A stretch of 64,000 nt of DNA from Lachnospiraceae bacterium (GTDB lineage Bacteria > Bacillota > Clostridia > Lachnospirales > Lachnospiraceae), in contig JAGBHK010000025.1 of the NCBI GenBank assembly GCA_017935565.1, positions 1 to 64,000 on the forward strand. The letters run 5' to 3'. This document shows, one piece after another, positions 32,996-38,332 of the stretch. Numbering within the stretch: position 1 is the first letter of the stretch; every line of letters starts with the position of its first letter. The notes beneath the pieces were generated by a model that had not been told where the DNA came from, searched no databases, and worked only from the letters and a program-made list of their open reading frames with translations. The position numbers and the translations under genes are program-made.

Positions 32996-33150
32996 AATTT
33001 CCTCCATTCTAAAACGTAACAATCCCTATAATTACCGCATTTTGTTTTATTTAATTTTTCACAATTGAAACTATCTATAATTATACTACATATTATGAAA
33101 TTGAATTTTAAACTGTAACAAAAGGACTATTTTATGTAAAAATTAGCATA

Positions 33151-33178
33151 AAAAATAGCGGCTATAACCGCTATTTTT
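33151..33178 (-). terminator. terminator of the LytTR-kinase operon
   Basis: An 11-bp stem (AAAAATAGCGG with CCGCTATTTTT) with a 6-base loop that overlaps the last codon of the kinase-LRR gene. The A/T-rich arms would serve as the T tract in either direction. Confidence 0.75.
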
Positions 33179-36056
33179 AAAAACTTCTTCTACAATTATT
33201 TCTATATATCTCAAATCCTACAATGGCAAAAAGAACCATTAATACCGAGCCAACAATTATAATAACTTTAACTTTAACTTTCTTCACCTTTTGTTTTTCA
33301 TCCTTTTCATCAGAAACTATTGGTTCCGTATCATCACCACTCTTTGGTATATCCTTCTGTTCTTCTAATTTCTCTTCTTTTTCTGTTTCATTTATAATAA
33401 CATCTGAAGTCATTTCTTCAAAAATTTCTTCAAAACTTTCCTTTGATTCAGTATTATTATCTTCAATAAAACCAGCATTATCTTCTGATTCTGTATCTAT
33501 ATCATCATTTTCGCTTTCACCAAGCATATTTGTTATCACCAATGTAAATATACTAAAATGGTCTGACTGAAATGAAATTACCTGTCCCACTCTGGAACAT
33601 CTTAATTCTGTGAGACTTCCATCATCTTCTTGTCTAAACACATAATATCCCATACCATCTATATAATCTGTTACTGTGATTGATACTTTAACGCTTTCAT
33701 CAGGTTGAACCTTAATTTTAACAGTTACTCCATTCTCACTAACATCCTTAAATAATGAAATATCATACACATGGTATTTATATATATTCTCCACGTTATT
33801 TGTGATATTATTTAACATATCTTTGTAATTATCTAAATTCTTCAATTCTACAGCTTCTAAATATGTATTTTCATCAAATTTACCAATTACATTAATACTC
33901 GAATCCAAAATAGACTCTAATGTTCTATCAGTTTCATTGTCATTAATATTATCATCAACATCTGGTATAGGTGTTTCACCAACAATAAAACTTCCTGTAT
34001 CATGCATAACAGTAACTCCATCATTTAGTTTCATCATAACATCATATAAATTCAAACTAGAATTTGGTATACATATCATATACAAATCCGACAAATGTTT
34101 TAAATCCGGTATTACTGTTAAATTTTTCAAATCAATAAATGAAAATGTACTTAACTTAGTTAAGTCTGACAAAAAAGACGCATCTGACATATTACATGAG
34201 GTTATATAAAGTTCCTTTAATGTTGCACATTCACCAATAATCGAATAATCTTCTATATCATACGAATTCAATATACTAAAAGCTTCTATTTTCTCGTAGT
34301 TTTTCAAAAAACTTATATCTTTTACATTTGATACATGTAGTCTTATAGGAGAAATACTTTGTAATTGCGAATAATCACTAATTTCACAATTAGTTAATGC
34401 AAGTTCGTCAATATTTTTCCCATTGAGAAAACTTATATCTGTAAGCCCCGAACCACTGGCATCCAACCATCTTAATTTATCGCAATAATCTATATATGAA
34501 TAATCCACAATATTTACACAATAGGCTATATCCAACCACTCAATATTTGGCATATTAATAAGAAAATCCAAATTATCAATATTAGTATTGCGCAACCCTA
34601 AATACACAATATTATCTAACTCATATAATATCGAATAATCACTAATTGACTTACAATCTGTAAACGATAATTCATTCATATTTTCAAAAAATGATAAACC
34701 TTCTATATTTACAACTCCATCAGGCACGTATACGCTGCTTATTGCTAATGCATCGCTTTGGGTAAACATACCATCTTGATTATAATCATAATTGCTTATA
34801 CAATGTTCATAAAACACTTCATCCCCAACATCTGTTAAGTCTATTATTTCATCAGCATACGCAGACATCGAATCCACAAAACTAAATCCTGCAATAAAAA
34901 ACATTAATAAAATACTTTTTATACATACACTGAAAATACCATTTTTTGCTGTTACAATTAATTCTTTTCCAATATTAAAAAGTGCCTTTTTGGCATTGTT
35001 GAGTCCGAAGCCATGACCTTCCTCTGTTTTTTTAGTTTGAATTTTATCATCTACTATTAACAACTCTCCAGAATATGCATTTTCAATTATTATTTTCTCC
35101 TTTGAAATATCAACCTTTATAACATTATTCGTTGCACATTTCGAAGCCGCTTCAATGGCATTATCTAACAAATTTCCAATAATAGTAACATAATCAAATG
35201 CCTTTATATCGCAAAATACTTCATCAATATTTCCTGTAATTATTATTTTGCATCCATTTTCCTTCGCTTTTATACATTTTTTATCAAATAACAATCTGTA
35301 TACATTAGTATTTGCGGTTTCTTTATATAATTCTTCAATTTTATTCCTTACACATTCAATATTTGAATTTTCAGTTTGAGCAGCTTCATTCAATTTATCA
35401 ACAATATTTTTTATATTATTATTAATTGCAGATACTACTTTTTGCTGTCTGGTTATCATTTCATTCATTCTGATTTTCTCGCAAATAACCAGAAGTTCAT
35501 AAATAGCCACAATGCAATACACAAAACACAAATATACGATGAACGCATTTATTTTATTCAAATTTTCTATTGCAATTCCTGTTATATATAGATAACAAAG
35601 TAAAGATATTGATAAAATAATAGCTATTATTTTCCCAGCAAAACTTTTTATTTTCTTATCTTTATTTCTGTTATGCCAGCAAATAAAGATATAACACATA
35701 ATTGCTCCAACAGCTAGGGTCGTCAGCAAATATGCTATTTTTTCATCTTTTAAATAATTACCCAATATGGCTGCCATTCCGAATGCTATGTTCAATTCAA
35801 CATACATTATTAATTTATTCATTAGTGTATTATCTATAACAAATACTATTATTAGCAATTCTACAACAATCTGAATAACATCGAGTAGCATCTTATATTC
35901 TTCATATTCAGGAAGCAAAATAATCATGTGACTAATGAATATCATTAATGCCATCTTGAACTTAGGCTCATTTTTATTGCTGTACATTGTATAAAATGAT
36001 GCACTAATTAAGGATGCAGCTAAACAAAATATAATCTGTAAGCTTAAATTATACAT
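33177..36056 (-). CDS. AgrC-like GHKL protein lacking the His, fused to an extracellular LRR domain
   Basis: A 959-residue protein. Six or so helices (residues 1-190) lead to a GHKL kinase region. Where AgrC-type kinases have HDxxNH, this one has NNNIKNI (about residue 210), so it lacks a phosphoacceptor. The ATPase is intact by motif: N box NLLDNAIEAA near 297 and G box GHGFGL near 347. Immediately after the usual kinase end (GIFSVCI, residue 375) comes a signal-peptide-like helix (ILLMFFIAGFSFVDSMSAYA), an EF-hand or dockerin-like loop (DYNQDGMFTQSDA), leucine-rich repeats to about residue 680, a further beta domain, an acidic spacer and a terminal helix near 930-952. ATG at 36056 overlaps the previous stop by 8 bases. 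The fusion is read directly; the signalling role is inferred. Confidence 0.85.
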   Translation of the reverse strand: MYNLSLQIIFCLAASLISASFYTMYSNKNEPKFKMALMIFISHMIILLPEYEEYKMLLDVIQIVVELLIIVFVIDNTLMNKLIMYVELNIAFGMAAILGNYLKDEKIAYLLTTLAVGAIMCYIFICWHNRNKDKKIKSFAGKIIAIILSISLLCYLYITGIAIENLNKINAFIVYLCFVYCIVAIYELLVICEKIRMNEMITRQQKVVSAINNNIKNIVDKLNEAAQTENSNIECVRNKIEELYKETANTNVYRLLFDKKCIKAKENGCKIIITGNIDEVFCDIKAFDYVTIIGNLLDNAIEAASKCATNNVIKVDISKEKIIIENAYSGELLIVDDKIQTKKTEEGHGFGLNNAKKALFNIGKELIVTAKNGIFSVCIKSILLMFFIAGFSFVDSMSAYADEIIDLTDVGDEVFYEHCISNYDYNQDGMFTQSDALAISSVYVPDGVVNIEGLSFFENMNELSFTDCKSISDYSILYELDNIVYLGLRNTNIDNLDFLINMPNIEWLDIAYCVNIVDYSYIDYCDKLRWLDASGSGLTDISFLNGKNIDELALTNCEISDYSQLQSISPIRLHVSNVKDISFLKNYEKIEAFSILNSYDIEDYSIIGECATLKELYITSCNMSDASFLSDLTKLSTFSFIDLKNLTVIPDLKHLSDLYMICIPNSSLNLYDVMMKLNDGVTVMHDTGSFIVGETPIPDVDDNINDNETDRTLESILDSSINVIGKFDENTYLEAVELKNLDNYKDMLNNITNNVENIYKYHVYDISLFKDVSENGVTVKIKVQPDESVKVSITVTDYIDGMGYYVFRQEDDGSLTELRCSRVGQVISFQSDHFSIFTLVITNMLGESENDDIDTESEDNAGFIEDNNTESKESFEEIFEEMTSDVIINETEKEEKLEEQKDIPKSGDDTEPIVSDEKDEKQKVKKVKVKVIIIVGSVLMVLFAIVGFEIYRNNCRRSF

Positions 36057-36828
36057 TTTGCTCCACCTCCATCCAACCAGCAATTATTTTCTCATCTTTG
36101 CCATTTTCAAATATTAATGTACCATCAATATCTTCTATTATTTCTTTAAATAATTTTAATTCCTGGCTACATTTTCTTTTATTTGCAATACTTGAAAAGT
36201 CTTTACCCACCACACTGTAGGCAATAACATTGCTATTTTTTGTTCTATCTTTTACATACATTTTAACCTCCACATTTGAGGCTAAATACATTTCTTTTTC
36301 AATGACATTAAATAAAAGCATTATTATGTAATAAAAATCAAAAGACTGCACATCTTTCAAGCCATACAACGAAATATTATATTCAAAATTTGTAAACTCT
36401 TTTTCTAATTTTTCAATATTAAATATAAAAATATGATTAAGCATATCATTATCACTAAAATTCACAACATCTTCTCCATAAAGTAATGTTCTGATATCAT
36501 TAATTATTGCAGATTTTTCAGGATACTTCTCTGCATCCATCAACTCCACAAGCACTTGCGAATGATTGGCAAAATCGTGCTTTAATTCGGCTCTTTTTTT
36601 CATAGCATTTTTCATATTAGAATAATATTCATTAAAATTCTCACAAACTATAGTTTTATCAATAGAAGCCTTACTTTCTCTTATTATCAAAACACCCCCA
36701 TAAAGCACAAATATCACACCAATTAACATTGGTGTGATATTTAATACATCGCTTTCATATACTGTTTGCGCCATAAATATCATCATAAATAAATATACAA
36801 TTACTATACTTACAGCTATTTTTTTCAT
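36049..36828 (-). CDS. AgrC-like protein with phosphoacceptor His but degenerate ATPase
   Basis: A 259-residue protein with two helices at residues 3-22 and 30-50. It then has the dimerisation and phosphoacceptor motif LKHDFANHSQVLVELM with His84, as in AgrC/GHKL kinases. The following domain has the length of a GHKL ATPase, but the N box is altered (MLLFNVIEKEM) and the glycine-rich G box is gone (region SIANKRKCSQELKLFKEIIE). It should not bind ATP well alone. It lies 12 bases after a LytTR regulator and overlaps the next kinase-like gene by 8 bases (ATGTATAA), which implies coupled translation of the two. I infer they form a hetero-oligomeric kinase. Confidence 0.8.
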   Translation of the reverse strand: MKKIAVSIVIVYLFMMIFMAQTVYESDVLNITPMLIGVIFVLYGGVLIIRESKASIDKTIVCENFNEYYSNMKNAMKKRAELKHDFANHSQVLVELMDAEKYPEKSAIINDIRTLLYGEDVVNFSDNDMLNHIFIFNIEKLEKEFTNFEYNISLYGLKDVQSFDFYYIIMLLFNVIEKEMYLASNVEVKMYVKDRTKNSNVIAYSVVGKDFSSIANKRKCSQELKLFKEIIEDIDGTLIFENGKDEKIIAGWMEVEQNV

Positions 36829-36840
36829 TTGAATTACCTA

Positions 36841-37557
36841 CTAAATTCTATTTAACAAATTATCTTTAATGCCCTTTTTGTAATATCGGCTCACTTGTAT
36901 TTTAGTACCATCAAAAAGAGTTATCTTTGTTTCTTCATACTTTTTAATCATATTATAGTTAACCACGAAACTTTTGTGGCACTGTAAAAAGTCTTTGCCG
37001 AACATATTCTTTAAATTCTCAAGTTTGTTAATCGTAACAATCTCTTCATCCTTGATATGTATCTTCACATATCTGCCTTGAGATTCCAAATATTTTATCT
37101 CAGACATTTTCAATCTATGAATACCCTTTACAGCCTTAATTGTAACACATCTGTTTTTAGCATCCATAATATGATAATATAATTTTTCCATCACATCAGC
37201 TAATTTTTTGTTTTCAATCGGCTTAAATAAAACCGATAAAGGGTCAACTTCAAATACATCTTCAATTGCATTTTTATTTCCTGTGCAAAAAATAATATTG
37301 ATATCTTTATATTCTTTTTTTATCTTCTTTGCAACATCGATGCCATTATTCTCCTTGCCTTCACCTAAAAATATATCCATAATTATGGCATCTGGAAGGA
37401 TTTTGCTATCATAGATATAATCATATAAACCATTAGCATCACAAAATGTATCTATTATCACCGTATTATCCTTGGATAATGATGAAAAAATCTTTGTAAT
37501 TTTCTTTTTTAAATCGTCTAATATTGTTTGATTGTCATCGCAAATTAGTATCTTCAT
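36841..37557 (-). CDS. LytTR-family response regulator
   Basis: A 238-residue AgrA-like regulator. The receiver domain starts MKILICDDNQTI, has the phosphorylatable Asp in IIMDIFLG and the conserved Lys in VLFKPI. The LytTR DNA-binding domain covers the last 100 residues (GIHRLKMSEIKYLESQGRYVKIH-type strands, then FLQCHKSFVVNYNMI). It is the first gene of the operon with the two kinase-like genes. Upstream, TATAAT on the minus strand (37583-37588) lacks a good -35 element, as is usual where a LytTR protein activates its own promoter. Confidence 0.92.
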   Translation of the reverse strand: MKILICDDNQTILDDLKKKITKIFSSLSKDNTVIIDTFCDANGLYDYIYDSKILPDAIIMDIFLGEGKENNGIDVAKKIKKEYKDINIIFCTGNKNAIEDVFEVDPLSVLFKPIENKKLADVMEKLYYHIMDAKNRCVTIKAVKGIHRLKMSEIKYLESQGRYVKIHIKDEEIVTINKLENLKNMFGKDFLQCHKSFVVNYNMIKKYEETKITLFDGTKIQVSRYYKKGIKDNLLNRI

Positions 37558-37618: not shown

Positions 37619-38332
37619 TCATAAATGGTCTTTTTTATGTAATAAATGGTTTTGCAGTTCCTTTCTTTTTCTTCTTGATAAAGGAACATACTCTTTTGAT
37701 ATTAAATTCACTTCATAAGTACCAATTGACATGATTTTTTCAACATTGACTAAAAAACTTCTGTGGCACCAAAACATCACATCTTTTGTCTTTTCATACC
37801 ATTCAGTTAAATTGCCATTCAAATAGTATTCTTCATTTTGAGTATATACAATTATCTGCCTACCTCTGGCTTCAATATAATATATATCCTTTATATTTAA
37901 ACAATAAACTACATTATCATACTTAAATGTAACAGTCTGATTTCCTACTTCCATCCATTCTTCTTCAATTCGCTCCAAAACGGAGTAAACATCCTCTTTT
38001 GTAATAGGTTTCACAAGAAAATGTGATGGTTTTGCTTTGAAAATTTGTTTTGCATAAGATATAAAACCTGTAATAAATACAACCTTCAAATTCTTATCTG
38101 CCTTTTGCAATTTTACAGCAATATCAATCCCATTACATCTCTTAAGCTTAATATCTAGAAATATCAAATCCGCTTTATTACCATTTTCAATGTAATCAAA
38201 CAGTTGAAGTTCGCTATCCATTTTTATTATTTCAGTTCTATGCTCTTTTGGATTATCGGCATAATAATCTAAAATATGCCTTTCCAACGCTTCACATATA
38301 ACTACTTCATCATCTACAATCAGTATATTCAT
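37619..38332 (-). CDS. LytTR-family response regulator
   Basis: A 237-residue regulator of the same class: receiver MNILIVDDEVVICEA with Asp in LIFLDIKL and Lys in FLVKPI, then LytTR (YYIEARGRQIIVYT, FWCHRSFLVNVEKI, VPLSRRKRKEL). It starts directly after the ung stop codon, so it is translationally coupled to ung, although it lies only 61 bases before the regulator of the kinase operon. Two LytTR regulators in a row next to one kinase pair suggests either branching output or an orphan. It is transcribed in the same direction as the kinase operon. Confidence 0.92.
   Translation of the reverse strand: MNILIVDDEVVICEALERHILDYYADNPKEHRTEIIKMDSELQLFDYIENGNKADLIFLDIKLKRCNGIDIAVKLQKADKNLKVVFITGFISYAKQIFKAKPSHFLVKPITKEDVYSVLERIEEEWMEVGNQTVTFKYDNVVYCLNIKDIYYIEARGRQIIVYTQNEEYYLNGNLTEWYEKTKDVMFWCHRSFLVNVEKIMSIGTYEVNLISKEYVPLSRRKRKELQNHLLHKKDHL

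Follow-up and report, generated by a model that had tools for sequence, protein, structure and literature searches.

A candidate AgrC-type receptor histidine kinase split between two adjacent membrane proteins in a Lachnospiraceae bacterium

Two adjacent genes in a 64,000-nucleotide stretch of DNA (the window) from a Lachnospiraceae bacterium (NCBI GenBank assembly GCA_017935565.1, contig JAGBHK010000025.1, positions 1 to 64,000 of the forward strand) had been proposed, in a first-pass annotation, to encode complementary halves of one AgrC-like histidine kinase. All features of this locus lie on the minus strand. Two LytTR response regulators come first, regulator 1 at 37619..38332 (Pfam Response_reg 1.8e-14, LytTR 3.2e-22) and regulator 2 at 36841..37557 (Response_reg 2.6e-11, LytTR 1.4e-20); the annotation had a single LytTR regulator opening the operon, and it was right about a LytTR regulator upstream and wrong about the number, as Pfam finds two. 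They are followed by a 259-aa protein that retains the phosphoacceptor histidine (36049..36828; hereafter the H-half) and by an open reading frame (ORF) at 33177-36056 that joins, in one frame, a kinase part with an intact ATP site (34917..36056; the ATP-half) and a C-terminal leucine-rich repeat (LRR) surface protein. The same parts recur in G001, a genome of the same genus that was one of seven other searchable ones.

The H-half comprises two hydrophobic, transmembrane (TM)-like segments (called in both halves by simple hydropathy), a DHp region and a degenerate CA-like domain. Its H box, HDFANH (36562..36579, with the codon of the phosphoacceptor His84 at 36577-36579), has the same letters in G001. 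The CA-like region still matches the AgrC-type CA domain in an hhalign profile comparison (98.1%, E 1.3e-13, residues 62-246), and the best PDB sequence matches to a profile of the H-half and AgrC-like kinases were 6e52 and 6e95, both structures of Staphylococcus aureus AgrC. The N box reads IMLLFNVIEK where GNLLDNAIEA is expected, with the first Asn and the Asp gone, and the HGxGL motif, or G box, is wholly gone. HATPase_c_5 (PF14501) gave no match to this protein up to E 1, and its best Pfam family match was SPOB_a, which at 16.8 bits lies far below the cut-off of 28.1. PHROGs gave no match up to E 0.01, NCBIfam none above cut-off for either half, and CheA families were absent from the Pfam matches of both. 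A 16-pair inverted repeat, terminator-like by scan, lies inside the H-half coding sequence (36708-36743).

The ATP-half has several TM-like segments and a DHp-like region that lacks the histidine, and its HATPase_c_5 domain is intact (E 1.7e-15, 57.2 bits against a cut-off of 22; hhalign 99.8% for the CA domain). At the place of HDxxNH, the alignment with a hidden Markov model (HMM) puts NNNIKNI (35403..35423), with Asn213 (numbered from the ATG start) at the position of the histidine. The N box, GNLLDNAIEAA (35145..35177), is conserved in G001, and the G box, GHGFGL (35001..35018), corresponds there to GEHGLGV; residues N295, N299, N326, G349, and G351 are invariant in a 56-sequence alignment that includes seven His-less kinases. 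The reading frames, coordinates and motifs that the annotation had reported for the two proteins (KHDFANH with His84, an altered N box and no G box in one; intact N and G boxes and NNNIKNI in place of HDxxNH in the other) thus stand in both the sequence and the HMM alignment, and the comparison with AgrC/GHKL kinases that it had suggested aligned both halves to AgrC-type domains (hhalign and HMM). The ATP-half most likely starts at the ATG at 36056 rather than at the TTG at 36083 given in the mechanical ORF list, because GGAGGTGG sits just upstream. With this start, the 8-base overlap between the H-half stop and the ATP-half start, ATGTATAA (36049..36056), is exactly as annotated, but it is not conserved, since a 12-base gap separates the two genes in G001; equal synthesis of the halves, which had been read from the overlap, is conceivable. 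GGAGG-like sites precede the ATP-half in both genomes, in which both frames are open.

The LRR part (33177..34847) ends in a C-terminal TM-like segment and matches LRR_4 (1.1e-5) and LRR_EndoS (1.6e-5) in Pfam, both below their cut-offs. Between it and the kinase part lies a hydrophobic stretch (34848..34916) that, by eye and hydropathy, resembles the signal peptide of a separate LRR protein in G001 (..SAYADE in the window, ..SVYADE in G001). That protein, stretches of which are 35% and 39% identical to the LRR part, is encoded by its own gene 72 bases downstream of the G001 ATP-half (locus L051, 4429-7383), which accounts for the fused frame of the window and links the LRR protein with the kinase. 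The former signal peptide appears to have become an internal hydrophobic segment, and the LRR part may thus be extracellular and attached to the C-terminal end of a kinase. Right after the stop codon of the long protein, a short hairpin carrying a run of T can be made out by eye (about 33150-33175), which is unlisted by the terminator scan and is possibly the operon terminator.

In G001, the order is regulator 1, regulator 2, H-half, ATP-half, and LRR protein, and both regulators have receiver and LytTR domains (Pfam), each being 41% identical to its counterpart in the window. The kinase proteins have diverged further (22% identity between the H-halves and 31% between the ATP-halves) and show the same complementary losses, with the H box preserved in the H-half and the N and G boxes in the ATP-half. 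The longest identical run between the H-halves is HDFANH itself (347 of 20000 column shuffles reach a run of six); that between the ATP-halves, DNAI, is no longer than expected by chance (18433 of 20000 shuffles), and the six best 12-column windows of the ATP-half alignment fall on three stretches, of which one is the N box, another the G box and the third a transmembrane segment. With the H, N, and G boxes among the best-kept stretches, the complementary boxes have been retained while most else changed. Compared by eye, the genes that flank the module are not the same in the two genomes: the window has uracil-DNA glycosylase and his genes there, and G001 has a GGDEF protein. The five parts therefore seem to form a unit. 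Strong ATP-half matches among eight genomes of the genus were confined to G000 (E 8e-194) and G001 (E 6e-238), the next-best having an E value of 2.6e-11. A nearly full-length match in G004 (L118, E 2.6e-8) proved to be a kinase with its histidine and was not accepted as an orthologue, and a scan of contigs found at least 67 GHKL loci at 22-43% identity, with no clear orthologue among the matches listed. An orthologue with both motifs in one protein, which the annotation had named as grounds for abandoning its proposal, did not turn up, and G001, the only orthologous locus found, keeps the losses.

Beyond this genus, we classified ORFs by their His, N-box, and G-box columns using an HMM of the AgrC-type transmitter built from fetched loci. 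Searches with the pair of H-halves and with the pair of ATP-halves each covered 299 genomes of the family, alignments of further halves were searched in 392 genomes of the order, again in 392, and in 391 of the class, and the DNA of at most 30 matches per search was classified. At seven loci in seven genomes (the window, G001, G271, G142, G181, G099, and G605, the last five being from outside the genus), a His-less kinase with N and G boxes has both a His-only protein and a LytTR regulator as neighbours, and the co-occurrence in related genomes that the annotation had suggested looking for was thereby observed both in the G001 module and at five further adjacent loci. In G271, a 148-aa His-only protein is followed by two kinases with RQELSDQ and KQDLSDQ; in G142, a kinase with KQYYFSQ stands between two 292-aa His-only proteins that are 72% identical; and in G099, a kinase with VNEFENY precedes a 259-aa His-only protein with RHDMKHY. 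The G605 locus reverses the distribution of membrane parts seen in the window, with many hydrophobic segments in a 305-aa His-only protein (NHDIENH) and two in the His-less kinase that follows it. G181 has a 165-aa His-only protein and then a Flagellin_N-GHKL fusion with QQEFSGK. A single LytTR regulator was identified by Pfam in the stretch read at each of these five loci, the G181 contig ending just upstream of its regulator. A sixth genome, G033, has its halves on separate contigs, the His-less kinase on C14, about 250 bases from the contig end, and its His-only paralogue on C35 (30% identity over 158 aa, E 1e-22; FRDEILDY and FRHDLANH, respectively); the ends of C35 and the start of C14 share no 18-base word, so that adjacency is unproven, and 11 of the 19 HATPase_c_5 matches in this genome were classified.

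Two features of these loci deserve mention in their own right. The G181 fusion (L204, 4339-5631) places a Flagellin_N domain (E 7.4e-42) on a His-less GHKL domain beside a His-only membrane protein. Subunit numbers also differ, with two His-only genes around one catalytic gene in G142 (L203) and one His-only gene with two catalytic genes in G271 (L202).

How specific the association is was gauged by a census of 367 sequence sources, in which 286 kinase ORFs, counted without redundancy, had both the N box and the G box; 269 were kept and 17, which were cut by an end or too short for DHp, were dropped, among them L175_7971, L236_1068, and L335_5090, catalytic pieces of broken kinases that lie beside a His-only piece. 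Nine of the 269 AgrC-like kinases were His-less, and seven of these nine had a His-only ORF within 250 bases on the same strand; the eighth (the second kinase of G271) shares an operon with a His-only gene, and the ninth is that of G033, whose paralogue sits on a different contig. Of the 260 kinases that have the histidine, not one abutted a His-only ORF, with at least 500 bases in view on both sides of 234 of them and at least 1 kb on both sides of 152. Conversely, 26 non-redundant His-only ORFs, defined by the absence of a G box (a rule under which the window and G001 H-halves count despite one N-box Asn), were sorted by reading their classifications, and 11 survived: those of the window, G001, G271, G142 (two), G181, G099, G605, G033, and G857 (two). 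Eight of them abut a His-less kinase, the G033 one is on another contig from its kinase, and none was found for the two of G857.

The other His-only candidates were rejected on three grounds. L175, L207, L236, and L335 are kinases broken by a frame change; L061, L216, L309_1024, and L318 have the histidine and the N box with a G box that is merely unusual; and L231, L235, L252, L309_1, L328, L344, and L360 are cut by the end of a stretch. L231 and L252, both from G400, end at contig ends, two other contigs of that genome begin inside a CA domain, and the two were taken for truncated whole kinases. A second kind of pair was also seen at L254, L261, L262, L207, and L259, in which a small kinase with the histidine and both boxes lies close to a longer family member with neither histidine nor G box and with a degenerate N box (e.g., QKLIDSQ in place of HDxxNH). 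The ORFs overlap in L254, L261, and L262, L254 has two pseudokinases in a row, and the small kinase of L207 is frame-broken.

Taken together, these observations suggest that the pair in the window probably makes up a single receptor histidine kinase of the AgrC type, shared between two membrane proteins, which would phosphorylate in trans and feed the neighbouring regulators. The proposal that the two proteins are complementary halves of one kinase is thus supported by the losses in G001 and by their recurrence elsewhere. The phosphoacceptor and the catalytic domain lie, by motif and profile, on different proteins; the ATP-half has a CA domain with N and G boxes and LytTR regulators adjoin, and neither half carries HDxxNH in the same chain as an intact CA domain, so that by definition neither protein alone is an AgrC-type kinase and the pair together would be. 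AgrC is reported to autophosphorylate in trans, the kinase domain of one chain acting on the histidine of the other (PMC6066662, which cites George Cisar et al. 2009; this and the other papers given here by PMC number are drawn on in excerpt), which makes a dimer with one histidine and one CA domain mechanistically possible, and by this geometry a dimer of the H-half and the ATP-half would have exactly one productive site. Mechanistically, the ATP-half would bind ATP and have no histidine to phosphorylate, while the H-half would carry the histidine and be unable to bind ATP; the two would pair via their DHp helices, perhaps obligately, and the CA domain of the ATP-half would phosphorylate His84 of the H-half in trans. 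One or both of the operon's LytTR regulators would then receive the phosphate from the H-half, which may perhaps also act on them as a phosphatase. The signal is probably received by the ATP-half, which has a multi-TM sensor and the attached LRR ectodomain.

Several findings weigh against this reading or against its extension to other genomes. One N-box Asn survives in the H-halves of the window and G001, and this box is therefore altered rather than erased. The window genome is a draft with an estimated completeness of 81%, and less than 1 kb was in view on one side of 108 of the 260 His-bearing kinases. Fisher's test for the adjacency gives p 1.9e-12, which is not a fair probability because the sampling was non-random and G142, G181, and G099 were fetched as matches to H-half queries (G001 and G605 were found by queries with the long or catalytic proteins, and G271 was matched by both kinds). 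No AgrC-type kinase lies within about 4.5 kb of the two His-only membrane proteins (RHDYNNH) that stand in tandem in G857 (L327, 5534-7459), and classification of all nine HATPase_c_5 matches from this genome turned up no His-less AgrC-type kinase, indicating that His-only proteins need not always be halves. With regard to origin, partner halves show no BLAST similarity in the window, G001, G181, and G605, and a single clade of His-less kinases is not rejected (AU test, p 0.41).

Other explanations account for part of these data. If the H-half were a Spo0B-like phosphotransferase or phosphatase, a homodimer moving phosphate between the LytTR regulators beside an ATP-half that acts as a separate regulator, its DHp with a degenerate CA domain, its best family match to SPOB_a, and the two receiver-bearing regulators of the operon would all find a place; however, that match is far below cut-off, both regulators have DNA-binding domains, unlike the Spo0 relay donor, which is a single-domain protein, the five other loci have one LytTR regulator in the stretch read, and the loss of the neighbour's histidine is left unexplained, and we consider this unlikely. 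We hold a similarly low opinion of a scheme in which the two proteins form no kinase together and each modulates an intact AgrC-like kinase elsewhere, as RetS does with GacS. Heterodimeric modulation of sensor kinases is known from that system (excerpt of PMC12189002), the 12 HATPase_c_5 matches in the window genome indicate further GHKL kinases that could be targets, and the G857 proteins are His-only without a His-less partner in sight; the immediate partner of each half is itself not intact. Under this scheme, however, neither half would require the precise complement of the other, and seven side-by-side complementary losses, against none among 260 His-bearing kinases, would stay unexplained.

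Loss of function offers another account, in which two kinases are decaying, and both the high divergence and the degenerate CA domain of the H-half would be expected from it. That the frames are open in the window and G001 with GGAGG-like sites before the ATP-half, and that the complementary boxes were kept while the rest fell to 22% and 31% identity, makes decay very improbable in our view. Draft assemblies can also cut one kinase into two ORFs by a frameshift, and real cases occur in our data (L175, L207, L236, and L335), but both members of every accepted pair have a DHp region and a hydrophobic membrane part of their own (only the flagellin-fused ATP-half of G181 lacks the latter) and are therefore not fragments of a single ORF; such an artefact is hardly credible in general and, for the window pair, is refuted by the domain content that its two proteins share.

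If the pair is, as we favour, a divided kinase, its origin may be sought in gene duplication. The halves are paralogous in G142 (26% identity over 291 aa), G271 (33% over 136), and G099 (23% over 238), as well as in G033, and pairs of this kind probably stem from the duplication of a gene for a homodimeric kinase, after which the copies underwent complementary losses; we infer the same origin for the window pair itself. A tree of CA domains needs three changes of the His-less label, and, given the AU result for one clade, independent origins of His-less kinases are not claimed. More broadly, we lean, with only somewhat more confidence than doubt, towards a scenario in which AgrC-type receptor kinases in this family and order have passed from homodimers to obligate heterodimers by duplication and complementary loss, perhaps several times. 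The resulting receptor would read two inputs at once through two distinct membrane sensors (in the window one carries an LRR ectodomain; in G181 one is fused to a flagellin domain) and would fire only with both subunits.

Such pairs may be of wider use. Tests of cis or trans phosphorylation in sensor kinases use engineered chains that lack either the histidine or the ATP site, e.g., mutants of MtrB (excerpt of PMC5956149), and this experiment seems to have been fixed by nature in these operons. Pairs of the window type would be ready-made heterodimers for structural work and a test of the change from homodimer to heterodimer after duplication, and, as modelling predicts switch-like behaviour for split bifunctional kinases (excerpt of PMC3591291), the window pair would be a candidate for it. 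They also carry a warning for annotation, since a kinase without its histidine may be half of a working enzyme.

Among known systems, Spo0B, a soluble relay protein, consists of a DHp and a CA-like domain that does not use ATP; the H-half resembles it in its weak SPOB_a match and differs in having TM-like segments and in lying beside a His-less kinase. AgrC of S. aureus, as far as the excerpted sources describe it, has a DHp with the phosphorylated histidine and a CA domain with a G box and forms a trans-autophosphorylating dimer, but both sites are present in each of its chains, whereas each chain in the window has one. GacS/RetS and DivL/CckA likewise involve sensor kinases that act through contact with a second kinase-like protein (excerpt of PMC12189002); in these systems an intact kinase is modulated by another, while neither protein in the window is complete. 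Our search of openly licensed PubMed Central papers did not find an AgrC-type split kinase, and splits of the CheA class are known. One is Hik36/Hik43 (PilL-N/PilL-C) of Synechocystis, reported to be a histidine kinase in split form that acts on a single regulator (PMC7656254); it is a cheA homologue cut into two genes and not a pair of DHp-bearing membrane kinases with complementary losses. Another is CheA3/CheA4 of Rhodobacter sphaeroides, a natural kinase in which one protein bears the phosphorylatable His domain, the other the catalytic domain, and neither autophosphorylates by itself (excerpt of PMC3591291). This pair is of the CheA class with the histidine on a separate P1 domain, whereas the window proteins resemble AgrC-type membrane receptors with the histidine in the dimerisation domain and LytTR neighbours; judged from its domains, the window pair would thus work like a split CheA without being one.

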